NCBI GenBank assembly: GCA_018969785.1
Contig: JAGWXR010000008.1
Span: forward strand, 1 to 38,171
Length of the DNA stretch: 38,171 bases
Source of the DNA: Alphaproteobacteria bacterium
GTDB lineage: Bacteria > Pseudomonadota > Alphaproteobacteria > Micropepsales > Micropepsaceae
Direction of reading: 5' to 3'
Within the stretch, counting starts at the first letter, position 1, and each line of letters begins with the position of its first letter. The notes under the pieces are model-generated. The model saw only the letters and a list, made by a program, of their open reading frames with translations. It searched no databases and was not told the DNA's origin. Made by a program: the position numbers and the translations under genes. Shown here in pieces: positions 8,241 to 34,798 of this stretch.

Positions 8241-8262
8241 GCGTGTCGTGGAGATCCAAGGT

Positions 8263-8358
8263 GAGAGGCTGACGAACGACCCGAGTCGAAACTCGTTGCG
8301 GCTGCTTCCTTCCGGACCTGACCGGGTTGGCGAGGAACTCGTCCGCCGCCAACCTCCC
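8263..8358 (-). ncRNA. ffs: signal recognition particle RNA (small bacterial, 4.5S type)
   Basis: The minus strand holds the highly conserved apical domain of SRP RNA, GGAAGGAAGCAGCC within 8300-8323, which is the Ffh-binding site. The ends pair over 12 bases: GGGAGGTTGGCG (8358-8347) with CGTCAGCCTCTC (8274-8263), including two G-U pairs. This defines a hairpin of about 96 bases, the size of the short SRP RNA without Alu domain. It works with Ffh and FtsY to deliver membrane proteins. The ends are set from the pairing and from the promoter position, and may be off by a few bases. Confidence 0.95.
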
Positions 8359-17629: not shown

Positions 17630-18592
17630 CTAGAGCTTCATGATCTTGATGACCGCAGGCCCGATGATCACCGCGAACAGGACCGGCAGGAAGAAGATGA
17701 TCATGGGAACCGTCAGCTTCGCCGGCAGGGCGGCCGCCTTCTTCTCGGCCTCCGTCATGCGCATTTCACGGTTCTCCAGCGCCATGACGCGCAAGGCCGT
17801 GCCCAGCGGTGTACCATAGCGCTCCGCCTGGATCAGCGACGTGCAGACCGCCTTGACGCCCGGATGGCCGCAGCGCCTGGAAAGGTTCTCGTAGGCCTGC
17901 CGTCGGTCCGGTAGGTACGACAGTTCCGCCGTTGTCAGGGCAAACTCCTCGGCAAGTTCGACCGATTGCGACCCGATCTCGTTGGCCACCCTGTTGAACG
18001 CGCTTTCGACCGACATGCCGGACTCCACGCAGATCAAAAGCAGGTCAAGGCCGTCAGGGAAAGCTTTCATGATCGACGCCATGCGCTTGTCGATCACGTT
18101 CTGCACGAACAGGTCTGGCAGGTAGAACCCGAGGAATGCGACGCCAACCGCGATGGTCACCTTCACAATGGGCGCCATCCCGAGCTTCGCGATGAAAAAG
18201 AGATAAAGGATCCCCGCCACGAACATGATGATCGGCATGACGAAGCGGAAGAAAAGGAACGTGTAGACGGCCGACGGGCTCCGGAAGCCTGCACGCCCGA
18301 GCTTCTCTTTCGTCGTGGCCGTTTCCATCAGGCTGCGCAGGTTCAGCCTCTCGACGATCTGTCGAATGAAATTGACCGATGCCGGACGCATCTGTGCCCG
18401 CCGGCCGGTCGAATCGCGCAGTGACGCCCGCAGTTCATCACGCCGCGCCGCGACCGACTTCATGCGCGCGGCAAGCCTGTCGGTCTCGAAATAGGGCAGC
18501 AGCATGGTGATCACGGTGGCAAAAACGGCCACCATGACAAGCGCCGTAACCATGAACTCCGGATCGAGAAGCTGCCTGATGATCTTGTCCAT
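17630..18592 (-). CDS. tadC: Tad pilus inner-membrane platform protein TadC
   Basis: A 320-residue GspF-domain protein that with TadB forms the inner-membrane platform on which the CpaF ATPase acts. A first helix (about 14-34) and a cytoplasmic stretch precede two central helices (around residues 110-165). The T2SS-F core is at about 170-290 (DLLLICVESGMSVESAFNRV, SLIQAERYGTPLGTALRVMA), with a last helix at about 295-318. The ATG at 18592 has GGTGGGGCAGG just upstream; a GTG five codons earlier touches the tadB stop and is the alternative. It is the last gene of the operon before the shared terminator. Confidence 0.93.
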   Translation of the reverse strand: MDKIIRQLLDPEFMVTALVMVAVFATVITMLLPYFETDRLAARMKSVAARRDELRASLRDSTGRRAQMRPASVNFIRQIVERLNLRSLMETATTKEKLGRAGFRSPSAVYTFLFFRFVMPIIMFVAGILYLFFIAKLGMAPIVKVTIAVGVAFLGFYLPDLFVQNVIDKRMASIMKAFPDGLDLLLICVESGMSVESAFNRVANEIGSQSVELAEEFALTTAELSYLPDRRQAYENLSRRCGHPGVKAVCTSLIQAERYGTPLGTALRVMALENREMRMTEAEKKAAALPAKLTVPMIIFFLPVLFAVIIGPAVIKIMKL

Positions 18593-18608
18593 GTTCGCCT
18601 GCCCCACC

Positions 18609-19613
18609 TCAGAACTTGAAGTTGATCATTTTCTTCATCACGAAGATGCCCATCGACATCCACACGAGGCTGCACAGCAGCACGAAGTTGCCGACCCGCT
18701 CCGTGAACAGCAGGACGATGTAGTCCGGCGACGTGAAATAGACGAGCAGGCCGACAATGAACGGCAGCGAACCGATGATGCCTGCCGAGGCCTTGGCTTC
18801 CGATGACAGTGCCTGGATCTTGCCCTGCAGGCGCTTGCGGTCGCGCAGCACCGCCGAGAGATTGCTCAGCGCCTCTGCAAGGTTGCCGCCCGTCTTTTGC
18901 TGGATGACAAGCACAATCTGGAAGAAGTTCACCTCCGCCAGCGGCATGCGCTGGTACATGCGCCTGAGGCCCTCTTCCAGCGTGACACCGACCTTCAGGC
19001 CCTCGATGATGCTCTTGAACTCCGGCCCGACGGGCTCAGGCGATTCCGCCGCGATGATCTTGAGGCATTCGTTCAGGGGCAGGCCCGATTTCACGCCGCG
19101 CACGATGACGTCGATCGCGTTTGCGAATTCGCGCAGGAACGCCTTCTTGCGCCGGCCAACCGAAAACATCAGGAACCAGCGCGGGAACCCAAACCCGGCA
19201 ACCGCGCCCGCACCCAGCGCCACATAGAACTCATAACCCATCAAGACGAAAAGCAGGATCGCGCCAATGCCCAGCGTTGCCGTCATGATCACGAAACTGC
19301 GCGGATCCATCGACCAGTCGGCCTGCTGCAAGAGCCCCGACAGTGTCGGCTTTGGATTGGTCTGACCCTGCTTGCGCTCGGCTTCCTTCAGCGAGGCTTC
19401 CACCTGCTTGCGCCGCTTCGCCGCCAGGTCGCCGGCAGACTCTCCCCGCCCCGGCGCATTGTTGCGCGTGCCCGAACCGCGCGTCACCGCGGCCACGCGC
19501 TTTCCCTTGCGGACAGCCGGTTCTGCAGCCTCCACAAGGAACAGCGCCATGCCGCCGACGAACAGGCCGACCGATACCGCCGTGAAGAGCATGACAAGGA
19601 TGATGGTATTCAT
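18609..19613 (-). CDS. tadB: Tad pilus inner-membrane platform protein TadB
   Basis: A 334-residue GspF-domain protein. An N-terminal helix (about 3-28) is followed by a basic linker rich in Arg, Lys and Gln (about 35-85), then a pair of helices (about 105-150). The T2SS-F core (about 165-290) shows AIDVIVRGVKSGLPLNECLKI and VLVIQQKTGGNLAEAL, with a final helix pair. It partners with TadC 17 bases downstream. It lies 29 bases after cpaF in the same operon. Confidence 0.94.
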   Translation of the reverse strand: MNTIILVMLFTAVSVGLFVGGMALFLVEAAEPAVRKGKRVAAVTRGSGTRNNAPGRGESAGDLAAKRRKQVEASLKEAERKQGQTNPKPTLSGLLQQADWSMDPRSFVIMTATLGIGAILLFVLMGYEFYVALGAGAVAGFGFPRWFLMFSVGRRKKAFLREFANAIDVIVRGVKSGLPLNECLKIIAAESPEPVGPEFKSIIEGLKVGVTLEEGLRRMYQRMPLAEVNFFQIVLVIQQKTGGNLAEALSNLSAVLRDRKRLQGKIQALSSEAKASAGIIGSLPFIVGLLVYFTSPDYIVLLFTERVGNFVLLCSLVWMSMGIFVMKKMINFKF

Positions 19614-19642
19614 GGCGGAAACAGGCCTCTTTCGATAAACGC

Positions 19643-21076
19643 CTAACTCTTGCGCGAGGCCGCCTCGATCGCCTCAAGCAATTCCTGCTCGCGGTTGTAG
19701 TAGCGCGCCCGCTCCCAGAACGCCGGCCGCGAAATGCCCGTGCTGACATGCCGCCCGCGAACCCGTCCGCTCTCGTCCTCACCCTGGATCTCGTAGAGGA
19801 ACAGGTCCTGCGTGATGACGACATCGCCTTCGAGGCCGATGACCTCGGTGATGTGTGTGATGCGTCGCGAACCATCGCGCAGGCGCGCCGCCTGCACGAT
19901 CACGTCGATGGCGCCCACAACCATCTCGCGGATGGTCTTGGAGGGCAGGTTGTACCCGCCCATCGTGATCATGGACTCGATGCGTTGCAGGGCCTCGCGG
20001 GGGGTGTTGGCATGCAGCGTGCCCATCGATCCGTCATGGCCCGTATTCATGGCCTGCAGGAGGTCGAAGGCCTCCGGTCCGCGGACTTCGCCGACGATGA
20101 TGCGTTCAGGACGCATGCGCAGACAGTTCTTGACGAGGTCACGCATGGTGATTTCGCCTGTACCCTCGAGGTTCGGCGGGCGCGTTTCAAGCCGCACCAC
20201 ATGCGGTTGCTGCAGCTGGAGTTCCGCCGCGTCTTCGCAGGTGATGACGCGTTCATCCGAATCGATGAAGCCGGTCATGCAGTTCAACAGCGTCGTCTTG
20301 CCCGAACCCGTACCACCCGAGATCAGCACGTTGCAGCGCACATTTCCGATGATCCCGAGGACCGCCGCACCTTCGGGCGAGATCGAGCCGAACCGCTGGA
20401 GGTCCGACATCTTCAGCTTGTCTTTCTTGAACTTTCGGATGGTCAGTGTGGGACCATCGATCGCCAGCGGCGGCGCAATCACGTTGACACGGCTGCCGTC
20501 GGGAAGGCGGGCGTCGCATATCGGCGAGGATTCGTCGACGCGCCGGCCAACCTGGCTCACGATGCGCTGGCAGATGTTCATCAGCTGCGCATTGTCGCGG
20601 AAGCGGACATTGGTCAGCTGCACCTTGCCCGAGACTTCGATGAACACCCGGTCGGCACCATTGACCATGATGTCGGCGATATCATCGCGCGCCAGCAGAG
20701 GTTCGAGCGGTCCATAGCCAAGGACGTCGTTGCAGATGTCCTGCAGCAACTGTTCCTGCTCGGCAATCGACATCGCCACGTTCTTGATGGCGATGATCTC
20801 GTTGACGATGTCGCGGATTTCCTCGCGCGCCGAGGCCGCATCGAGCTGCGCCAGCTGCGCCAGGTCGATCGTGTCGATCAGCGCATTGAAGATCGTCGTC
20901 TTGACTTCGTAGTATTGTGACGAGCGACTGTCGACATGAACCGGTGGTGGCGGAAGATCGGCGGCACGCGGCGGCGGCTTGACCCCGCCGGCCTTTGCGG
21001 CGGGGGGTGGCGGCGGCGCAGGCGCACGCTCACGCTGCGCAGTTTCGGCACCGGGTCCTGATCGCTTGCCGAACAT
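19643..21076 (-). CDS. cpaF: Tad secretion ATPase CpaF/TadA
   Basis: The hexameric ATPase powering pilin assembly (and, in some Tad systems, retraction). The 477-residue protein has a Pro/Ala-rich N-terminus (about 15-48), an N-terminal helical domain (about 50-130) with YGPLEPLLARDDIADIMVNG, and the GspE-type core. Walker A GGTGSGKT is at 254-261; the Walker B region RPERIIVGEVRGPEA follows at about 320-335, then the His box NTGHDGSMGTLHANTPREAL. The C-terminus VIVQAARLRDGSRRI is typical. It starts 6 bases after the cpaE stop, so the two are tightly coupled. Confidence 0.97.
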   Translation of the reverse strand: MFGKRSGPGAETAQRERAPAPPPPPAAKAGGVKPPPRAADLPPPPVHVDSRSSQYYEVKTTIFNALIDTIDLAQLAQLDAASAREEIRDIVNEIIAIKNVAMSIAEQEQLLQDICNDVLGYGPLEPLLARDDIADIMVNGADRVFIEVSGKVQLTNVRFRDNAQLMNICQRIVSQVGRRVDESSPICDARLPDGSRVNVIAPPLAIDGPTLTIRKFKKDKLKMSDLQRFGSISPEGAAVLGIIGNVRCNVLISGGTGSGKTTLLNCMTGFIDSDERVITCEDAAELQLQQPHVVRLETRPPNLEGTGEITMRDLVKNCLRMRPERIIVGEVRGPEAFDLLQAMNTGHDGSMGTLHANTPREALQRIESMITMGGYNLPSKTIREMVVGAIDVIVQAARLRDGSRRITHITEVIGLEGDVVITQDLFLYEIQGEDESGRVRGRHVSTGISRPAFWERARYYNREQELLEAIEAASRKS

Positions 21077-21082
21077 GAGCCG

Positions 21083-22345
21083 CTACGCCCTCTTGCGCCG
21101 CAGGAAATCGAGGCTGATCCCCCGCGTCGGTTTGGCGTCAACGCGCGGCGCACGTCCGGTCAGCACCTGCCCGAGGTCGCGGAAGAGCTGCGCCGGCCGC
21201 GACTGCGCATTCAGTTCGGCAAGCATCTGACCGTTGTTGTTGGCCGTGGCAAAGATCTGCGGATCAAAGGGCATGACGACCGAGGGATCACAGCCCATGG
21301 CATTGGCGAAATCCTTGACGGGAATCTCGGGCCGCTTGGGCACGCCAACCTGGTTCAGCGCAAACTTCAGCGGCTGGTCATTCGGTCTCGACTGCGTCAG
21401 CATCTCGTGCAGGTTCTTGCCGTTGCGCAGGCTCGACAGCTCGGGCGTCGCCGTGATCACGATTTCGTCGGCGGACGACAGGACCTGCTTGACCCAGTTC
21501 GACCAGCTGTGCGGCAGGTCGATGATCACACAGGGCGAAATCTGGCGCACGGCATCGATGATGATGTCGACGGCCTCAGGCGAGATGTCCATCTCCCGGT
21601 CGACCAGCGCCGGCGAGATCAGCAGGCTCAGCCGGTCCGTATGCTTCAGGAGCAGGCGCTCGAGCATCACCTCGTCAAGCCGCTCCGGACTCGTCAGCGC
21701 TTCCGCGATGCCCTGCCCGATGTCCTGGTTGAAATCGAGACCTGTGGTGCCGAACGGCACGTCGAAATCGATGACGGTCGTGGCAATCCGCTGGTCTTCC
21801 GCGATCGACCACGCCACATTGTGCGCGAATGTCGAGGAGCCTGAGCCACCACGCGCCCCGTAGAACGCAAAGACCTTCCCGATCGGCCCTGAAGACTGCC
21901 CGTGATAGAGCGATGCAACCGCCTCGATGACCTGGATCGGATTGAGCGGAGACACAAGATACTCGCTGATCCCCTGCCGGATGAGCTCGCGGTAGAGTGC
22001 CACGTCGTTCGACCGCCCGATCACGATGACCTTGGTTCCCGGATCGCAGACCTGCGCAAGCTTCTCGAGTTCCCCGAAGATGGCATTCCCCTGCTCGCGT
22101 GTCTCGACCATGATCACGTTGGGCGTTGAGGAGTCGCCGAAGTATTCGACGGCCCCGAAAACGCCGCCCATGTGCACCGTAAGATGCGCCTTCGCCAGCC
22201 GTCGGTCCTGTCCCGCGCGCTGGATGACCGCACCGGTCTCCGGCGACTCGCAGAAGGCATGGATCGACACCCGCGGGATCGGTCGGTCCTGCAATGCGGC
22301 ACCGAACGGTGTCTCACCCCTGTCCTGTGACCTCGACTTGCTCAT
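21083..22345 (-). CDS. cpaE: Tad pilus localisation ATPase CpaE/TadZ
   Basis: A 420-residue protein with a receiver-like N-terminal domain (about 50-150: VIMVETREQGN, VIVIGRSNDVALYRELI, GISEYLVSPLNPIQVIEAV) and a MinD/ParA-like domain from about 155. CpaE positions the pilus machinery at the cell pole in Caulobacter. The nucleotide loop is GARGGSGSST (163-172): it lacks the Lys of a normal Walker A motif, as described for the TadZ/CpaE clade, so ATP hydrolysis is doubtful. Later landmarks are VIDFDVPFGTTGLDFNQD and CVIIDLPHSW. It lies 41 bases after cpaD and 6 bases before cpaF. Confidence 0.94.
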   Translation of the reverse strand: MSKSRSQDRGETPFGAALQDRPIPRVSIHAFCESPETGAVIQRAGQDRRLAKAHLTVHMGGVFGAVEYFGDSSTPNVIMVETREQGNAIFGELEKLAQVCDPGTKVIVIGRSNDVALYRELIRQGISEYLVSPLNPIQVIEAVASLYHGQSSGPIGKVFAFYGARGGSGSSTFAHNVAWSIAEDQRIATTVIDFDVPFGTTGLDFNQDIGQGIAEALTSPERLDEVMLERLLLKHTDRLSLLISPALVDREMDISPEAVDIIIDAVRQISPCVIIDLPHSWSNWVKQVLSSADEIVITATPELSSLRNGKNLHEMLTQSRPNDQPLKFALNQVGVPKRPEIPVKDFANAMGCDPSVVMPFDPQIFATANNNGQMLAELNAQSRPAQLFRDLGQVLTGRAPRVDAKPTRGISLDFLRRKRA

Positions 22346-22386
22346 GATGCGCGATACCTCAGATGTCAGACTTGCTCAGGCGACCA

Positions 22387-23067
22387 TCATTCCTTGGCAA
22401 CATTCGAGACCTCGCCACTCTCCTTGGAGGTGTCGGTCTGCGTTGCGGTCGGCTCGCCCTTGCGATACTTGTCAAGCACGACGCCACGGCGCATGGCATC
22501 CGATGGATCCTGCTGGCGCGGCTGTATGAGGTCGCGCGGATCCTCGAGGATCGCAGCAAGGTTCTGCTGGCTGCTGCAGGCGAAGTTCGGATAAGGCAGG
22601 TTCCGCGGCTCCTCGCCCATGTCCTCCGACCAGTTCCCCGCGCAGCTCTCGGCAACAGCCGTGTCCGTCATGAAGGTAAGTGATACGCTCGCACCCCGTC
22701 CGGCATCGCCTGCACGATCCCCCGACACACGCATGGAGTTCTCGCCCACATTGGCGGCCGCAAGGATAGCGCGCACGTCACGCAGGGCGACCTCGGGTGC
22801 GACCGGCCCCTCTGACGACACGCCGAGAAGACCATAGCCACGCAGTTTCCACGCATCCGCAAAGACCCGGACCCGGTCGCCATCGCGTGCCTGCAGGCTG
22901 CCATCGGCACCCACCGGCACCACGATCGTCGCAACTTGCGGCTCCACCCGGATGGGGAAGCGGTTTTCCACCAGCGGGAGTTGGTCCTCGCTGTTCGCCA
23001 ACGGCAACGTGCACCCGGCAACCGATGTGGCCAGCAGCAGCACGCAAATCCTGGACGTGATCCTCAT
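22387..23067 (-). CDS. cpaD: Tad pilus assembly lipoprotein CpaD
   Basis: A 226-residue lipoprotein with lipobox VAGC (Cys19). The body carries the CpaD pattern: FPIRVEPQVATIVVPVG, VRVFADAWKLRGYGLLGV, then CAGNWSEDMGEEPRNLPYPNFACSSQ split over about residues 140-170. The paired Cys in that last segment are conserved in the family. The protein probably assists the CpaC secretin in the outer membrane. The C-terminus (about 195-226) is polar and disordered. AGGATC lies just before the ATG. It follows cpaC after 68 bases. Confidence 0.92.
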   Translation of the reverse strand: MRITSRICVLLLATSVAGCTLPLANSEDQLPLVENRFPIRVEPQVATIVVPVGADGSLQARDGDRVRVFADAWKLRGYGLLGVSSEGPVAPEVALRDVRAILAAANVGENSMRVSGDRAGDAGRGASVSLTFMTDTAVAESCAGNWSEDMGEEPRNLPYPNFACSSQQNLAAILEDPRDLIQPRQQDPSDAMRRGVVLDKYRKGEPTATQTDTSKESGEVSNVAKE

Positions 23068-23135
23068 GATCCTGATCCTAATCCTGTCTCAATTGCCAAA
23101 GTCTTGAACGATGCGAAAACCATTGTTTATCGGGG

Positions 23136-24614
23136 TTACTGGATCGTGAACCCGGCCGGTCCCTTGAGCTTTCCGTCAACCTTCTCGCCCTTCCCGTAGA
23201 CGGCATTCAGCCGGGACAGGAAAACGGTCTCCGCATCGGTGGGAGGCACGAAACCGTCGGCCGGCGTCGACAGCGCAGTCCGCGCAGCCGGTTTGACGAG
23301 GTAAGGCGTGACAATGACGACAAGCTCGGTCTCGCCCGACTGGAAGTCGCGGCTCTGGAACAGCGCCCCGAGGATCGGGATGTTGCGCAGCCCCGGCAGG
23401 CCGTCGATATTCTGCTTCATGTCCTGCTTGAGCATGCCTGCCATGACCATGCTGCCACCGGACGGCAGCTCGACAGTCGTCTCGGCCCGCCTGACCCTCA
23501 GCGCCGGTATGGCAACATCGCCCAGGATCAGCGCGTCCTCTGCCGAAAGCTCGGAGACCTCTGTCGAGATCCGGAGGCTGATGCGTCCGTCCGAAAGCAC
23601 GACCGGCGTGAACCCGAGCCCGACACCATAGGGCTTGAACTCCAGCGTGATGTTTCCATCCTGGTCGCGCCCCACCGGCACCGGATACTCGCCGCCCGCA
23701 AGGAACTTCGCCGACTCGCCGGAAATGGCCGTCAGGTTGGGTTCTGCAAGCGTCTTGATCATGCCCGATCGTTCGAATGCCCTGATGACGGCCGCCGCCG
23801 GAGAGATTGCATTCCCAAGCGCGTCAAACTCGCCCAGCACGATGTTCGATCCCGGTGCCAGCGCCGACCCGAGGAGCGAGAACGGATTGACGTTGGTGAT
23901 GCTGCCGGGCGCGCCATTGCCAAGGTCAAAGCTGCCATAGACATTGGTGCCGATCTGCTTGGACAGGGTCCGCTGCATCTCGGCGACACGCACGCTCAGC
24001 ATCACCTGCTCGCCGCTGCGGATGCCCACGCGGTTCACGACCGACGTGTCGACGGGTTCCTTCCCCGCCTCCGTGATGTAGCGCATGGCAATCTGGCGGG
24101 CGGCTTCGGCATCGCTGGCGCTCTTGACAGAGCCGTTCAGCACGACGCTGTCATTGATGGTTTCCACGTCCACCGTGGAGCCCTGCACATTCCGCTCGAT
24201 GATGTTCTTCAGTTCCGTCATGTCGCGTTCGACGCGGATCTCCAGGTTCAGGATCTGCTTGCCGTTCGCCGCGAAGAAGAACGCATTCGTCGGCCCGGTC
24301 TTGCGGCCGACGAGATAGATCTGGCGCGGCGTGCGAACGATGGCATCAACAATGTCAGGGTTGGACACAAGCACGTCGCGTGCGTCCTGTGGCAGTTCCA
24401 CGATCATGCCCTTTCCGGCCGACATGGTGACACGGCGCGATTGTGTACCCGAGCCGCCCGCATCGATCTTGAGGTGTTGCTCGGGAACGGCAACCGGCTT
24501 GGTCGGAGCGCCGGTCGGCTTGGCGGGCGCGGCCACCTTCATGCCATCCGCCTGCGCAGCAAGCGCAAGTACGAGGCTGGCAACCGAAGCAGTGAAGAGA
24601 CGCAGCATGGTCAT
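23136..24614 (-). CDS. cpaC: Tad pilus outer-membrane secretin CpaC/RcpA
   Basis: The channel through which the pilus leaves the cell. The 492-residue protein has a signal peptide (cleavage near AAQADG, about 20-24) and a pilus-specific N domain (about 60-130: VLVSNPDIVDAIVRTPRQIYLVG). A BON-like region (about 135-185) and the secretin core (about 270-445) follow, the core showing NLTAISGESAKFLAGGEYPVPV, GVGLGFTPVVLSDGRISL and SGGSMVMAGMLKQD. The ATG at 24614 is preferred to a GTG three codons upstream because AGGTGA is well spaced before it. Only 12 bases separate it from the cpaB stop. Confidence 0.96.
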   Translation of the reverse strand: MTMLRLFTASVASLVLALAAQADGMKVAAPAKPTGAPTKPVAVPEQHLKIDAGGSGTQSRRVTMSAGKGMIVELPQDARDVLVSNPDIVDAIVRTPRQIYLVGRKTGPTNAFFFAANGKQILNLEIRVERDMTELKNIIERNVQGSTVDVETINDSVVLNGSVKSASDAEAARQIAMRYITEAGKEPVDTSVVNRVGIRSGEQVMLSVRVAEMQRTLSKQIGTNVYGSFDLGNGAPGSITNVNPFSLLGSALAPGSNIVLGEFDALGNAISPAAAVIRAFERSGMIKTLAEPNLTAISGESAKFLAGGEYPVPVGRDQDGNITLEFKPYGVGLGFTPVVLSDGRISLRISTEVSELSAEDALILGDVAIPALRVRRAETTVELPSGGSMVMAGMLKQDMKQNIDGLPGLRNIPILGALFQSRDFQSGETELVVIVTPYLVKPAARTALSTPADGFVPPTDAETVFLSRLNAVYGKGEKVDGKLKGPAGFTIQ

Positions 24615-24626
24615 CGTTGTCACCTG

Positions 24627-25436
24627 TTATTGGCTGGGTGTCGCAGTGGACATGCCCTTGATCCCGTATCGCACGACGGTCACACCCGCCGCGGCGCCCT
24701 GGTTGAGTGCATCTTTTTCGTTGCCACCCTCGCCCTGCTCGTCCGCCCGCGCCAGCGACCGCAGTGTCAGCGACAGGTCTCCCATCGCGTCCGCAAGCGC
24801 CAGCGTCTCGGCTTCCCGTTCGCTGACTTCAAGCGTCGCCGTCTTTGCCACGATCGCCTTCGAGTCCGCGTCCTCATCCGAAGTCTGGTCTACCGCCAGC
24901 ACCCGGACATTCCGCAGGACCGTGATCGCCTGATAATTGCTCTCGCCCGACGAGTCTGTTCCCAGCTTGCGCGTCATGAGCACATCGACGCGGTCATTGG
25001 GAAGGATGAAGCCACCCGCACCGCGCTCGGCGTTGAGCTCGATGCCATAGGCGCGCTTGCCGGCACTCAGCGTCGCAGCCATGAAGCCACCGCCATCCGC
25101 CTTGACAACATTCTGGCCCGTGATGGGCTGCCCCTGGCTCAGCGGCGAGCGCGCAACTGCGCCCAGCGCCACCTCTTCAATCGCGGTCGGCTGGGCATCC
25201 TGCGTGATGAACGTCGAGCCCACCGCAGTTTTCGGCCAGTCCATCCAGCGCACGTCAGGAACGGTCAGCCGCGTTCCAACCTCGATCTCGCGGGCCGCAA
25301 CAAGCACTTGGCTGAGCTCCATCTTCGGCGCCGCTTCGGCTTCCGATTGGGTGCCCATGAAGTTGCGAACCAGCAGCGCGGCAATGCCGGCAGCTGCAAC
25401 GGCGGCAACCAGAACGAGGATCCTCGTCAGGCTCAT
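24627..25436 (-). CDS. cpaB: Tad pilus assembly protein CpaB/RcpC
   Basis: A 269-residue periplasmic protein with an uncleaved or cleaved N-terminal helix (about 3-25) and an SAF domain (about 40-110: VLVAAREIEVGTRLTVPDVRW, ALGAVARSPLSQGQPI). The RcpC domain (about 112-200) shows RAYGIELNAERGAGGFILPNDRVDVLMTRK. CpaB is thought to link the secretin with peptidoglycan and the inner machinery. The ATG at 25436 is preferred to one three codons upstream, because GGAGA then has a normal 9-base spacing. Its 133-base upstream gap carries the best CtrA-like box of the window. Confidence 0.94.
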   Translation of the reverse strand: MSLTRILVLVAAVAAAGIAALLVRNFMGTQSEAEAAPKMELSQVLVAAREIEVGTRLTVPDVRWMDWPKTAVGSTFITQDAQPTAIEEVALGAVARSPLSQGQPITGQNVVKADGGGFMAATLSAGKRAYGIELNAERGAGGFILPNDRVDVLMTRKLGTDSSGESNYQAITVLRNVRVLAVDQTSDEDADSKAIVAKTATLEVSEREAETLALADAMGDLSLTLRSLARADEQGEGGNEKDALNQGAAAGVTVVRYGIKGMSTATPSQ

Positions 25437-25502
25437 GGGTGTCATTCTCCGGTCGGTTCAGGCGGTTTCACGCCATCGGCACGATCTATGGGGCAGCAAG
25501 TC

Positions 25503-25519
25503 TCAAGCTATGGTTAATT
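25503..25519 (-). promoter_or_regulatory. strong CtrA-like box between cpaA and cpaB
   Basis: On the minus strand AATTAACCATAGCTTGA (25519-25503) contains TTAACCATAGCTTGA, that is TTAA-N7-TTGA. It also has the AATTAACCAT core often reported for alphaproteobacterial CtrA sites. It lies about 67 bases before the cpaB start and suggests an internal promoter. Sequence match only. Confidence 0.5.
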
Positions 25520-25569
25520 CTGGCAGTACATTTGTGAATGCATCGGAAACGCGTGTCCGGCATGCACCA

Positions 25570-26073
25570 TCAGGCTGGCAGCAGTGCGGGGGCGAACAAC
25601 TGTGTCTCGGGCAGGACGACCAGCGCGCCCACGGCAATGGCAATGCCATAGGGGATCACCGAGCCATCCCGCGTATGCTTCAGGAACCAGTCCATGGAAA
25701 CCCCGAAACCCGCGATTTTCTTGGCGGCCATGATAAGCAGAGCGAGTACGCCACCAGCCAGGATGACGACCACCGCATAGCTCGCCAGGTCCGACAGCCC
25801 GACATACAGGGACACGGCCGCGAAGAATTTCGCATCCCCGCCCCCGATGAGATTGAAGGCAAAAAGGATCATCCCCGCCAGCAGGGCGGCGAAACCGATC
25901 GTGAGGTGGATGCCGATGGACGTGAAATCCGAACCGCTGCACAGCGCAACGACCGGAAAAAGCGCCACGAGCACCAGCGAAATCCAGTTCGGGATGGTCA
26001 GCGTCGCCGCATCATAGATGGCGGCGATCGTGACGATGAAGCCGACCGACAGCAAAAGCGCGAGCATGATCAT
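25570..26073 (-). CDS. cpaA: prepilin peptidase CpaA/TadV
   Basis: A 167-residue inner-membrane aspartic protease that removes the leader from Flp and TadE-type prepilins. It is the short type without a methylase domain. The two catalytic Asp are Asp21 (in IYDAATLTIPNW) and Asp80 (in GGGDAKF); six hydrophobic segments surround them. The ATG at 26073 is chosen because a strong GGAGGAGGG lies 8 bases upstream; a longer version would add 12 basic residues. It follows the Flp gene after 157 bases that contain two hairpins and a CtrA-like box. Confidence 0.95.
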   Translation of the reverse strand: MIMLALLLSVGFIVTIAAIYDAATLTIPNWISLVLVALFPVVALCSGSDFTSIGIHLTIGFAALLAGMILFAFNLIGGGDAKFFAAVSLYVGLSDLASYAVVVILAGGVLALLIMAAKKIAGFGVSMDWFLKHTRDGSVIPYGIAIAVGALVVLPETQLFAPALLPA

Positions 26074-26122
26074 CGAGAGGTCCCTCCTCCTTCGGAAGGA
26101 TGGGAGCATATCCGCGACATCG

Positions 26123-26230: not shown

Positions 26231-26398
26231 TTACTTCGCCTTGATGTTCGTGCCGACCTTCGTGAACGTGCCGCTGAGTTCAGTACCCACGGTCGTCACG
26301 GCCGCGATGATCGCGGTCGAAATCAGAGCGGCAATCAGGCCGTACTCGATGGCCGTCGCACCAGACTCGTCCTTCAGGAAACGGGAAAAGAGATTCAT
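26231..26398 (-). CDS. flp: Flp/Fap type IVc major pilin, copy 1
   Basis: A 55-residue prepilin. The leader MNLFSRFLKDESG ends at Gly13, where CpaA should cut. The mature protein (42 residues) starts ATAIEYGLIAALIS with the family Glu and Tyr at +5 and +6 (Glu18-Tyr19), and continues as a hydrophobic helix ending in KVGTNIKAK. It is the structural subunit of the pilus. GGAGG lies 5 bases before the ATG. It differs from copy 2 at four positions (2, 4, 40 and 46), only two of them in the mature protein. It has its own CtrA-like promoter and is followed by two hairpins. Confidence 0.96.
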   Translation of the reverse strand: MNLFSRFLKDESGATAIEYGLIAALISTAIIAAVTTVGTELSGTFTKVGTNIKAK

Positions 26399-26472
26399 TG
26401 AGGCCTCCATTGAATGACACCACTACACCAGTCTTCCGAAGAGGGTTCATCCCGCTTTCGAAAACTGGGATC

Positions 26473-26504: not shown

Positions 26505-26689
26505 TTCGGCGGCCAAAACACAGGAGGATGGCGTTGTACGTGACTTATCGCCGATCATGTTTAACAGCGCACTAACGACAACACGACAAACTGTTTCGAG
26601 GACCCATCCCCCCTCGCCAGGGCAGCTGCAAGCAAACGGCCTGTGGCAGGACGCAAGTCTGGCAACAAGGGAAAGTGGAACAGAAACGG

Positions 26690-26793: not shown

Positions 26794-26961
26794 CTACTTC
26801 GCCTTGATATTCGTGCCGACCTTCGCGAAGGTCCCGCTCAGGTTCGTACCGACCGTCGTCACGGCCGCAATGATTGCCGTCGAAATCAGCGCCGCAATGA
26901 GGCCGTACTCAATCGCGGTCGCACCAGACTCATCCTTCAGGAAACGGGACACAAGCTTCAA
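26794..26961 (-). CDS. flp: Flp/Fap type IVc major pilin, copy 2
   Basis: A 55-residue prepilin: leader MKLVSRFLKDESG, then a mature part that differs from copy 1 only by Asn40 for Glu and Ala46 for Thr. I choose the TTG at 26961 as start. It aligns exactly with the ATG of copy 1 and gives the same length, and GGAGGG stands at the same place before it. The only upstream ATG (26973) is itself part of that ribosome-binding site (ATGGAGGG) and would add four residues. Many silent differences from copy 1 argue for an old duplication under selection. The gene has its own promoter and terminator. Confidence 0.93.
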   Translation of the reverse strand: MKLVSRFLKDESGATAIEYGLIAALISTAIIAAVTTVGTNLSGTFAKVGTNIKAK

Positions 26962-27031
26962 GACACCCTCCATTCTCAGACACCACCCAATGCACAGGAT
27001 CGGGATATTCCCGTCCTGCGACTTGCACGCA

Positions 27032-31052: not shown

Positions 31053-31082
31053 TTCCACAGCCTGATTCCCCTCGCCTAGAAT
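31053..31082 (+). promoter_or_regulatory. promoter of the HAMP protein gene
   Basis: TTCCAC (31053-31058) and TAGAAT (31077-31082) are separated by 18 bases. The -10 covers an ATG at 31081 that could be mistaken for the start codon, which supports the GTG at 31135 as the true start. Confidence 0.45.
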
Positions 31083-31134
31083 GCAGGTACGAATCACAGC
31101 CTGCGCGGGCGAGTGTCCGTTTCCGGGGGGATCA

Positions 31135-33630
31135 GTGCGCACGCTTTCTTGGATCAGCCGCCTGTTTGCGGCAGGAGCCGCCGTCGCTGCGATGGCGCTG
31201 GTTGTCGGGGGCAGCTACTACGTCGGCTTCGTCGGCGAGGTCCAGCGCGGCCTCAGCGATCCCCAATCGGCAAGCGCGCTTGCCATCAGCAGGATTTCCA
31301 CGATCGAGCAGGCCCTCGGCTATCAGGGCTACCTGCGCGCCTACCGCAGTTTCCGACTGACCGGCGACATGACGGCACGCCAGCAATTGACCCAGCGCTC
31401 AATGGAAGCCGCGCGGACGCTCGACGGCTTGAGGAGCCTCTTTTCGGCCTCTCCCGCGGCGACGCTTGCGATCAAGGACATCGAGGCCGTGGTCGAGGAG
31501 TTTGCCCGCATCGCACGCAGCGCTCCCGAGACACCGCCGGCAGCGCTGCGCGGCTCTGCCTCGATGGATGCAATCGACACCATGCCGGCAGTACCCCAGC
31601 TTGAAGCCACCTATCTCACGCTCCGCAGCGGCCTCGATCGCCTGAGGGCACAGACCAGTTCCTACCAGATGGGCAGCATTGCCTGGGCACTGACCTGGAG
31701 CCAGATGTTGATCATCTGTGCCTTCGCCGCCATCGTCTGCGGTCTCTTGGCCGCGGCCAGCCTGTTGCAGATCGGAATCACGCAGCCAATAAATTCACTC
31801 GCCCGGAGCCTGAAGGGCGCTGCCGAAGGGCGCCTCGCCAATCCCATATGGGGAACGGACCGCTCCGATGAGATAGGCGAGATGGCGCGCGCCAGCGAAC
31901 AGATGCGCAAGTCGCTGACGGAAACCGAAGCCCTCCAGCAACTGGCCCGGAACGGACATCTGAGCATCCGCATCGAAGGCGAAGCCTCTGCCCTTCTCGA
32001 GCGGACGGTCGGTGAAGTCGTCGCCAATGTGCAGCAGGCCGCCGAAGCCCTCAGGCACGCAGCCGGCGAACTTCAGGAAACCCAGGCAACTCAGCGCGAC
32101 ATCATCGACGCCCAGAAGATCACGGTCGGAACCTACGGCGAGAGGCTCGAGGACATGGCCGCAGGCTTCTCGCGCGCCGCCTGGGGTGCCGTCGAGACGG
32201 CAACGTCCGACCTGCGCGCCGCCACGGGCCGGATCGTCGAGACCGCAGCGACACAGGGCACGGCACTCGCAGCTGTCACAGGCAGGCTCGATGAACGCAG
32301 CCGCGAGGCGTCGGACGCCTTCGACAACATCAGGTCCAGGACCGGAGCCGCCATTGACGGACTAACCGGCGCAATCACGGCCTTCAGCAAGGCCGCCGAA
32401 AGCACCGGCACGATCCAGGGCGCTCTCTTTGCTTCATGCGACCGCATCTCGTCGGATGCCGCGACCACCGCCGACACGATCCGCACGCTCGCCGGCAGGC
32501 TCGAGGACGTTGTCGCCACCGCCGAGACCAGGCTTCAAGCACTGCCGCAAACTGTCCCCGCGGCCAGTGCCGAACAGGACGAAATGGCGGCAATCCTGCG
32601 CCTGTTCACCGACGGGGCAACCGATGACACGGGCGGCACGCTTCGCGACCGGCTCGTCGACCGCATCGCCACGGCCCTGCGCGACCGCCTCACCCCGGAT
32701 GAAGCCCTGCACCAGCAGGTCGAGGCGATGCGCAGCGACATCCGCGAACTCGCCCTGCGCATGACCGAGGAACGCATCCTCATGACGGCCGAGATGCCGG
32801 CACCCGCGCTGGCCCCCGAGGCACCGATCCTGCCGTCAGGCCCGCAGCGCACGCTCGCAGACGTACCCGCGGACGAGATCCTCGAGCGCCTGCGCCGTCT
32901 CTCCGACGAAATGGCGGCACCGGCCGCATCGTCACCACAGCCTGAAGATGACAACGCCGATGACGACATCACCGGCCGCCCGCAAAGCCTGACCGACAAC
33001 CTCAAGGCCTTCGCCCTCAGCGTGAGGCCGCTGGTCTGCGCGCCCGAACCCGCCGGCGAACTGCGCGACATGGCACAGGATTTCGCAAGGCACGCCGAGG
33101 CCATCGCGCTGAGCGCCCGGGAAGTCGCCCACGCCGCCGCCCTGCGCACCGAAATCGACGCCATCACGTCCGGATTGCGCGAACTCGCCGCGAGCCTACA
33201 GGCGCCTGGCACCGAACCCGCCGAAAACCTGCAGGACACAGCGATCGATCTCGGCGCCCGCGCCGAGACGCTGTTCAGCTACCTCAACCAGCGCGAGGTC
33301 GCAGCCGGCAAAGGCGCCGTCGTCGAAACCGCGCCTGAGGCTGGCGGAACCGAAACGATCACGCGCGCGACGCAGGACCTGATGACCCTCGCCCGCATCA
33401 TCGGCTCGCTCGAGCAGCGCACAGCCCTGCTCTCGGACGCTGCCGTCGCCGCCAACATGTCCAGGCAGGCAAACGGCATCGATGCGCCGGAAACGGACGA
33501 GGCCGATGCCCAGGAAACCGAACAGGCGATCAGTGTCGTCTACGACGCCGTTGAGCGGCTGAACAACATCGCTTCAGCCCTCGCCCGCGCTGCCGACGCC
33601 GGCCACCAGCGCCGCGCCGCATCTGCCTGA
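31135..33630 (+). CDS. HAMP-domain membrane protein with long helical C-terminus
   Basis: An 831-residue protein. A first membrane helix (about 10-32) precedes a periplasmic helical sensor (about 33-185), whose IEQALGYQGYLRAYRSFRLTGD resembles the GYGGFIH-type sensor of some chemoreceptors and cyclases. A second helix (about 188-212) leads to HAMP (about 214-262: ITQPINSLARSLKGAAEGRL, DEIGEMARASEQM). The remaining 570 residues are Ala/Glu/Arg-rich helices. I see no chemoreceptor signalling hairpin, kinase, GGDEF or EAL motif. The GTG start has GGGGGG just upstream; an ATG at 31081 would overlap the promoter. Located next to the Tad genes, it may be a structural or sensing partner; this is inference. 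Confidence 0.75.
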   Translation: MRTLSWISRLFAAGAAVAAMALVVGGSYYVGFVGEVQRGLSDPQSASALAISRISTIEQALGYQGYLRAYRSFRLTGDMTARQQLTQRSMEAARTLDGLRSLFSASPAATLAIKDIEAVVEEFARIARSAPETPPAALRGSASMDAIDTMPAVPQLEATYLTLRSGLDRLRAQTSSYQMGSIAWALTWSQMLIICAFAAIVCGLLAAASLLQIGITQPINSLARSLKGAAEGRLANPIWGTDRSDEIGEMARASEQMRKSLTETEALQQLARNGHLSIRIEGEASALLERTVGEVVANVQQAAEALRHAAGELQETQATQRDIIDAQKITVGTYGERLEDMAAGFSRAAWGAVETATSDLRAATGRIVETAATQGTALAAVTGRLDERSREASDAFDNIRSRTGAAIDGLTGAITAFSKAAESTGTIQGALFASCDRISSDAATTADTIRTLAGRLEDVVATAETRLQALPQTVPAASAEQDEMAAILRLFTDGATDDTGGTLRDRLVDRIATALRDRLTPDEALHQQVEAMRSDIRELALRMTEERILMTAEMPAPALAPEAPILPSGPQRTLADVPADEILERLRRLSDEMAAPAASSPQPEDDNADDDITGRPQSLTDNLKAFALSVRPLVCAPEPAGELRDMAQDFARHAEAIALSAREVAHAAALRTEIDAITSGLRELAASLQAPGTEPAENLQDTAIDLGARAETLFSYLNQREVAAGKGAVVETAPEAGGTETITRATQDLMTLARIIGSLEQRTALLSDAAVAANMSRQANGIDAPETDEADAQETEQAISVVYDAVERLNNIASALARAADAGHQRRAASA

Positions 33631-33664
33631 GCGCACGAAACATCCACTGGACTGTTTCAGGGAG

Positions 33665-33866
33665 AAAAACAGGCGGGGGCGTGGATGCTGGGTACATCCA
33701 CGCCCGAATCCCATTGGCACTGGGGGGTGCCGTTTGGCCGCCTCTTTGCCGGTGAGCCGGATGAATGGGGGACGACTCGGCCGGCGGGGGACTTGCTGCC
33801 GGCATCAAAGGGGATACCGGCACCTGTTGAGGGAAGCCTAGACCCCAGGTCTTAACAAAGGACTAA
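33665..33866 (-). other. structured intergenic region, possible small RNA
   Basis: The 307 bases between two convergent genes (33631-33937) contain no credible coding frame but several hairpins. GGCAC/GTGCC is at 33716-33731, TGCCGGCAT/ATACCGGCA lies near 33796-33818 (nine pairs with one G-U), and a strong 11-base stem is at 33677-33705. On the minus strand a CtrA-like box TTAGTCCTTTGTTAA (33866-33852) stands at one end, and the strong stem followed by TTTTT (33669-33665) at the other. This would give a transcript of roughly 180 bases. No known RNA family was recognised. Confidence 0.35.
33677..33705 (-). terminator. terminator-like hairpin in the convergent gap
   Basis: GGGCGTGGATG (33677-33687) pairs with CATCCACGCCC (33695-33705), a perfect 11-base stem with a 7-base loop. 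On the minus strand CCGCCTGTTTTT follows, so the T-run starts seven bases after the stem. It could end tesB read-through, a small RNA, or both. Confidence 0.6.
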
Positions 33867-33937
33867 TTGGCAGCCCCGCGGCCAGCTTCGCGCGGACGGA
33901 GTAAACGCACCGGCAACCAGACAAAGCCTGCAGGATC

Positions 33938-34798
33938 CTAGCTCCGCAGGCGGATCAGCCCCTCCTGCGCCACCGACGCAACCAGCTTCCCCTCGCGCGT
34001 GAACATCATGCCCCGGTTGAAGCCGCGTGCGCCTCCGGCACAGGGGCTGTCATGCGAATAGAGAAGCCAGTCATCGACCCTGAACGGATGATGGAACCAC
34101 ATGGCATGGTCGAGGCTCGCCGACTGCAGGCGCCCCGAATACCAGCTGACGCCGTGCGGGATGAGACACGTGTCCAGCAGCGTCATGTCCGAGGCGTAGG
34201 CAAGCACGCACTGGTGCAGCGCCAGGTCGTCGGGCATCGTACCCTTCGCCTTGAGCCAGACATCATGGTACGGCGGCCCTTTCTTCGGATTGATGAGGTC
34301 GTCATCCTCCTCGAGTGGTCGCACGTCGATGGGACCGGGCTTCATGAAGTGCTCGCGCACGGCCTCGGGCAGCTGGTGCGCCAGTCGCCGCCGGCGCACA
34401 TCCTCCGGCTCGAGCGTTTCCGGACCCGGAACCTGTGGCATGTCGAACTGGTGCTCGAGGCCCGGTTCGGGCACGTGGAACGAGGCCGCAAGGTTGAAGA
34501 TCTGCTGCCCATGCTGGATGGCGACGACCCGCCGGGTCGTGAAGCTCTTTCCGTCACGCGACCGGTCGACCTCATAGAGGATCGGCACCCGCGGATCGCC
34601 CGGCCGGATGAAATAGGCATGCAGCGAATGGCAGACCCGCTGTTCAACAGTTCGTGAGGCAGCCACCAGCGCCTGCCCGAGCACCTGCCCCCCGAAGACC
34701 CGCTGCCAGCGATCTTTTGGGCTGATTCCGCGAAAAATATTGACCTCGATCTGCTCCAGATCGAGCAACTCCAGCACTTCCTGGATCGTGCCATTCAT
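33938..34798 (-). CDS. tesB: acyl-CoA thioesterase II
   Basis: Hydrolyses acyl-CoA to free fatty acid and CoA. The 286-residue protein is a double hotdog: first domain with FGGQVLGQALVAASRTV (about 35-52) and LHAYFIRPGDP (about 62-73), second domain from about 165. Catalytic-site segments of the TesB family are visible: ASLDHAMWFHHPF (Asp in about the usual place), DSPCAGGARGFNRGMMFTREG and VASVAQEGLIR, with the Gln near the C-terminus. Length equals that of E. coli TesB. It converges on the structured gap at its 3' end. Confidence 0.95.
   Translation of the reverse strand: MNGTIQEVLELLDLEQIEVNIFRGISPKDRWQRVFGGQVLGQALVAASRTVEQRVCHSLHAYFIRPGDPRVPILYEVDRSRDGKSFTTRRVVAIQHGQQIFNLAASFHVPEPGLEHQFDMPQVPGPETLEPEDVRRRRLAHQLPEAVREHFMKPGPIDVRPLEEDDDLINPKKGPPYHDVWLKAKGTMPDDLALHQCVLAYASDMTLLDTCLIPHGVSWYSGRLQSASLDHAMWFHHPFRVDDWLLYSHDSPCAGGARGFNRGMMFTREGKLVASVAQEGLIRLRS

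Follow-up and report, generated by a model that had tools for sequence, protein, structure and literature searches.

Convergent genes meet at their ends, and the question raised by the present locus is what the space between two such ends can carry. In the window, the whole 38,171-nucleotide stretch of DNA that was analysed, positions 33631-33937 lie between the stops of a plus-strand gene, p849, which ends at 33630, and a minus-strand thioesterase gene (33938-34798). An earlier note on this DNA had described a gap of 307 bases with a CtrA-like box, hairpins and a terminator-like stem, and had proposed a CtrA-linked small RNA; both flanking stops were located and the extent of the gap is as described. 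Our comparison of related genomes supports the view that the minus strand holds a genuine small RNA gene, whose structure is conserved and whose transcript is predicted here (Table 1).

Table 1. Coordinates of the predicted small RNA, its promoter elements, its neighbours and related features in the window.
Feature	Position	Strand	Evidence and remarks
Small RNA gene, predicted transcript ~165 nt	33660..33827	-	Covariance-model match 33825-33663; conservation, covariation, strand bias
Hairpin 1, CCCC in loop	33797..33822	-	Helices 1-2: both-side changes in 5/7 pairs
Unpaired linker CCCCC	33786..33790	-	C4-C5 in 12/12 sequences
Hairpin 2, loop with UCCCCCAUUCAUCC	33748..33785	-	3/11 pairs change on both sides; 98.6% of cells paired
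Hairpin 3, loop CCCCCC	33716..33731	-	6 pairs, 4 with both-side changes; C5 or more in 12/12 sequences
3' domain: AGGCGG/CCGCCU closing stem, hairpin 3, 11-pair hairpin (33705-33677) and U-tract (33669-33665)	33665..33743	-	Probable terminator
CtrA-like box TTAG-N7-TTAA (TTAGTCCTTTGTTAA)	33852..33866	-	N7 spacing in 12/12 loci (L001-L012); CtrA binding predicted
Candidate -10 element, CTA(A/G)-like	33836..33841	-	Putative; seen in alignments, weakly conserved
Acyl-CoA thioesterase II (TesB-like)	33938..34798	-	Pfam PF02551, PF20789, PF13622; upstream of small RNA; syntenic in L001-L012
p849, convergent neighbour, membrane HAMP/coiled-coil protein	31135..33630	+	HAMP-like match at residues 208-268
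GGGGGG at p849 ribosome-binding site, candidate target	31125..31130	+	
Second TTAR-N7-TTAA box, Flp pilin 1 promoter region	26561..26575	-	Motif scan
Flp pilin 1	26231..26410	-	Sequence DESGATAIEYGLIAALI
Flp pilin 2	26794..26973	-	Motif common to Flp pilin 1
Tad/Cpa genes	17630-26109		

Read from its 5' end, the predicted RNA consists of hairpin 1, a linker, hairpin 2, a closed domain that holds hairpin 3 and an 11-pair hairpin, and a U-tract. The nine-pair stem with a G-U pair that had been noticed before is real and corresponds to hairpin 1 (33822-33797), in which nine pairs, one of them U.G, are joined to a CCCC-containing loop. The terminator-like stem and the TTTTT that was said to follow it are likewise both present, but the U-tract (33669-33665) stands 7 nt away from the 11-pair hairpin, behind CCGCCTG, of which CCGCCT pairs with the upstream AGGCGG. 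Because of this distance, a strict terminator scan did not list the hairpin and U-tract. The size of about 180 bases given in the earlier note is close, but a transcript of about 165 nt is likelier; its 5' end is placed by the spacing from the box and by the start of the first hairpin.

The segment 33866-33655 of the minus strand folds 5.0 standard deviations below its dinucleotide shuffles. In 12 of 12 sequences, with the incomplete sequence L010 left out of the z-scores, the folding z-score of the minus strand is lower than that of the opposite strand, and the pair cells of the alignment contain 27 G-U against 5 A-C combinations. Since both the G-U excess and the folding scores point the same way, the minus strand assigned earlier is taken as the strand of the RNA. 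Protein coding was rejected for either strand, as the genomes differ from one another by one- and two-base indels and have stops in differing frames. The unpaired parts are rich in C: four to five runs of C4 or longer occur in each RNA, and no G4 run is found in the 12 sequences. Every sequence has such C-runs in its linker and in the loop of hairpin 3, while the loops of hairpins 2 and 1 have them in 11/12 and 9/12 sequences, respectively; several unpaired loop runs of this length are the feature by which sX13-type C-rich-loop small RNAs are recognised.

By blastn, the gap was recovered from 12 of 61 genomes, namely the window's own genome, all 10 other genomes of the same genus and one genome of another genus (G016). 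Covariance models were built from loci L001-L012 (R1) and with the locus of genome G018 added (R2). The RNA was recognised in 13 of 96 family genomes, which were also all the genomes examined in the order-level search: 11 of 11 in the genus, G016, and G018 from a third genus. The G018 locus (L106) is the most distant homolog, and the gene upstream of the RNA there differs from tesB. No convincing covariance-model match was obtained in the second genome of G018's genus or in 82 further family members. Weak matches at L107, L108, L109 and L110 were rejected, having neither a CtrA-type box nor a clear p849 or tesB neighbour, and a laxer search of 30 family genomes returned three weak matches, none with context. 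Among 386 class-wide genomes, only the window and L110, a GC-rich hairpin judged to be spurious, gave a match, and among 80 named thioesterase loci the RNA was present only in L014, from the MAG 'Alphaproteobacteria bacterium isolate S-RSF-IL-04', so that the window is taken to come from an alphaproteobacterium not yet in culture.

The structure is conserved together with the sequence. In an alignment of 13 sequences fitted to the model, which by its construction favours the modelled structure, 96.3% of the cells are paired and 18 of 41 pairs change on both sides; in 500 shuffles, such values were not attained once. RNAalifold, applied to a plain and unfitted MAFFT alignment of 12 sequences, gives both-side changes in 9 of 36 pairs. 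The 11-pair hairpin at 33705-33677 changes on both sides in six of its pairs. A strong terminator is what one might expect between convergent genes, where a 3' hairpin could stand by itself and the C-runs could have arisen by chance. That the gap holds only such a terminator is nevertheless scarcely credible, being contradicted by the ∼110 nt upstream of the 3' hairpin, which are as conserved as the hairpin, and by three more stem-loops that covary. Two doubts raised together with the original proposal, that conservation might not go beyond the terminator and that the stems might lack covariation, are answered by these results: conservation reaches well past the terminator, and pairs change on both sides in the fitted and in the unfitted alignment alike.

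The neighbouring genes suggest two other origins for the RNA. The thioesterase gene adjoins the RNA in 12 of 12 loci (L001-L012), directly upstream and on the same strand, so that the RNA could be a piece of 3' UTR processed from the thioesterase mRNA. We consider this very unlikely because the RNA has a conserved promoter-like box of its own and because another gene takes the upstream place in L106. On the downstream side, some members of the genus (L002, L004 and L008) have a small gene, TonB-like as read from its sequence, that separates the RNA from p849; it lies on the same strand as the RNA and after its terminator, an arrangement in which the RNA could act in cis as a leader or attenuator. 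This role is highly improbable because the RNA is kept in the window and in genomes G003, G001 and G018, where the convergent p849 lies directly beyond it and no same-strand gene comes next; same-strand frames in G003 and G001 lie opposite p849. The reading that we prefer is that of a free-standing RNA.

We would also like to point out that one to three GANTC sites are found inside the RNA in all sequences of the genus that were compared for strand (33778-33774 in the window), usually in the linker and hairpin 2, and that none is found inside the RNA of L012 and L106. GANTC is the type of site methylated by CcrM.

Is the RNA controlled by CtrA? The box TTAG-N7-TTAA reported earlier at minus 33866-33852 is confirmed. 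Of 12 aligned loci, 11 have this motif and L012 has the variant TTAACCATTTGGTAA. Few parts of the promoter are as well kept, the 60 nt upstream being hardly alignable; two TTAR-N7-TTAA sites occur in the window, as against 0.03 expected by shuffling. The distance from the box to the first hairpin, ∼24-30 nt, is consistent with transcription beginning near 33827, provided that the box lies in the -35 region. In 8 of the 11 genomes of the genus a CtrA ortholog could be identified, including 6 of 6 of good quality; none was found in the window's own assembly, which is incomplete. A TTAA-N7-TTAA-like box thus stands at the promoter in genomes that have ctrA, as it does in members of the CtrA regulon. 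Judged from these promoter sequences, CtrA control of the small RNA is likely. The box of a conserved small RNA might instead serve another regulator, or be a TTGTTAA-type -35 element that works constitutively: no part of the box is more constant than the half TTTG.TAA, which could belong to such an element, and L106 deviates, with no N7 box and with CTAACCAATCTCTTAAC (CTAA-N8-TTAA, an 8-base spacer). We regard this as rather unlikely, as conservation covers both half-sites together with their N7 spacing, and the motif recurs at the promoter of Flp pilin, the pilin being a classic CtrA target in Caulobacter.

The second exact site of the window lies before the first of two genes that we take, by their motif, to be Flp pilins. 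The two are near-identical tandem genes on the minus strand, and two CtrA-like sites are located upstream of Flp pilin 1. When ten stretches of 10.5-40 kb from ten genomes were surveyed, exact TTAR-N7-TTAA was found only at the RNA (seven genomes) or before a Flp pilin (three: the window's genome, G002 and G009); in this survey the G005 stretch begins inside the RNA, the G010 stretch is limited to the p849 side, and the G003 stretch yielded no pilin. With one mismatch allowed, nine of these stretches have 17 sites in the 2700 bp before flp, whereas the rest of their sequence has 0.062 per 300 bp; a single repeated site, TTAAGGAT(G/A)TCTGAA, which may be coding, accounts for seven of the 17. 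The proposal of a CtrA-linked small RNA next to a Tad locus therefore holds for the conserved RNA, for the kept box and for the motif common to the Flp pilin promoter, while the link to CtrA itself is probable in the sense given above. Several conserved TTAA-type sites are also present in the ctrA promoter of the genus (upstream regions L111-L117), one of which (TTAAGCTTTGTTAAG in most) has CTTTGTTAAG in common with the small RNA promoter.

If the C-rich loops act by base pairing, G-rich sites near start codons are the places to look. The convergent gene p849, in which no Pfam domain is found at E 0.001, could be one such target. Its mechanically called ATG start at 31081 (31081-33630) is probably wrong; comparison with orthologs favours GTG at 31135, which stands behind a G6 ribosome-binding site. 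A run of G4-G6 precedes the p849 start in nine of nine same-genus orthologs (11 genomes searched) and is G5 or longer in eight of them; in two of the nine it ends 15 nt before the start. The run is absent at the p849 start of G016 and at the p849-like neighbour in L106 (G018). A second candidate is ctrA, which is preceded by GAGGGGAG in all seven upstream regions read (8 orthologs). As background, such runs are by no means scarce at ribosome sites: among 351 genes called crudely from 400 kb of G002, positions -20 to -4 contain GGGG in 38, GGGGG in 8 and GAGGGGAG in none. Upstream of the start region of gcrA, no GGGG was found in the last 25 nt (0/11). By duplex energy p849 ranks 17 and ctrA 99 of 355, and the latter rank weakens the idea of ctrA as a target. 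Moreover, of two control genes picked from 8 with G5 sites, one has at least four G in 4 of 7 orthologs and the other in 5 of 5, these 5 being the closest of 16 matches. Since a control gene also keeps G4 or more, conservation of a G-run alone is not strong evidence; G-runs at the ribosome sites of the control genes are partly kept by descent. Given these controls, the sequences are no more than suggestive of p849 and ctrA, which as targets are guesses, and pairing of C-runs with G-runs at ribosome-binding sites would, by analogy, be the likeliest mode of action.

The analogy comes from RNAs already described. According to PMC8959179, CcnA of Caulobacter crescentus is 182 nt long, is sited at the replication origin, has CtrA boxes in its promoter at -23 bp, and pairs through a CCCC loop with GGGG in the 5' UTRs of ctrA and other genes, and also with gcrA. 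The present RNA resembles it in size, in its CCCC loops and in a CtrA-type promoter box, here predicted from the motif and its N7 spacing. In contrast to the origin (hemE region) location of CcnA, however, our RNA has tesB and p849, a gene on the Tad side, as neighbours, and in G002 and G005 hemE is on contigs other than that of the RNA. Furthermore, GGGG is reported in both the ctrA and the gcrA 5' UTRs for CcnA, whereas here it is found before ctrA (7/7) and not gcrA (0/11). With model R2 as the query, no match was found within 1.5 kb of hemE in Caulobacter endophyticus (L134). Identity as CcnA is not supported, in view of the other genomic location and of a gcrA without GGGG at its ribosome site.

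A second parallel is sX13 of Xanthomonas, which in the part of PMC3771888 available has three stems with apical C-rich loops that act on G-rich motifs near start codons. The C-rich loops of our RNA are predicted to act on similar sites; sX13, on the other hand, is gammaproteobacterial, that part of the paper does not mention a CtrA box, and the two RNAs are compared here by description. We argue by analogy that the small RNA may work like CcnA and sX13, while its identity with either is not supported.

No Rfam family reaches its gathering score in the gap; elsewhere in the window, Rfam matches a Small SRP RNA (8261-8357, minus) and a tRNA (1730-1803, plus). A family of similar build is BjrC80 (RF02354), whose loops are likewise rich in C and whose terminator hairpin carries a loop of the CCCAGC type; it gives a weak full-length match of 18 bits, far under its gathering score of 80. 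Two true copies examined, at Bradyrhizobium loci, differ in lying directly after degP and in having no CtrA-type box, and no Rfam family, RF02354 included, matches the loci of nine relatives at E<=1. GsrN of Caulobacter, EcpR1 and GspS of Sinorhizobium and the 6C RNA of Actinobacteria are cell-cycle or stress RNAs or RNAs with multiple C-loops; where an Rfam family exists for them, it has no match here. In the literature collection searched, no paper was found that combines a small RNA, CtrA and Tad pili. It would appear that the locus represents a new RNA family, though one of a familiar type: that of C-rich-loop small RNAs, here with a CtrA-type promoter. The earlier claim of a new regulator stands as far as the family is concerned, but C-rich-loop small RNAs and CtrA-controlled CcnA were already known kinds.

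The explanation that we favour, and consider reasonably probable, is a free-standing, CtrA-activated and trans-acting RNA with its own terminator, whose C-rich loops and linker pair with G-rich Shine-Dalgarno sites. It builds on what is observed: a conserved RNA, its structure and strand, a conserved box, and the occurrence of that box before flp. CtrA would activate the minus-strand RNA from a promoter with the same type of box as the Flp pilin gene, and transcription would end at the RNA's own terminator. The C-rich hairpin loops and the C-rich linker could then pair with the Shine-Dalgarno sites of targets in trans, p849 and ctrA being the candidates, and the pairing would change their translation, most likely by repression. 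In this way, CtrA activity would gain a post-transcriptional arm.

A further-reaching version is conceivable, in which CtrA turns on the Flp pilin and the RNA together, and the RNA in turn shuts off translation of ctrA and of the convergent HAMP/coiled-coil gene through repeated C5:G5 Shine-Dalgarno contacts. This would amount to a feedback loop around Tad pili that is timed by the cell cycle and that evolved independently of CcnA; taken as a whole, we hold it to be distinctly doubtful.

The locus adds a family of RNAs that Rfam does not contain, whose regulatory box is common to a pilin promoter, and could serve as a compact test system for the post-transcriptional control of pili and cell cycle. 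Taken with CcnA, it would suggest that CtrA-controlled C-loop RNAs have emerged or been retained more than once among the Alphaproteobacteria.
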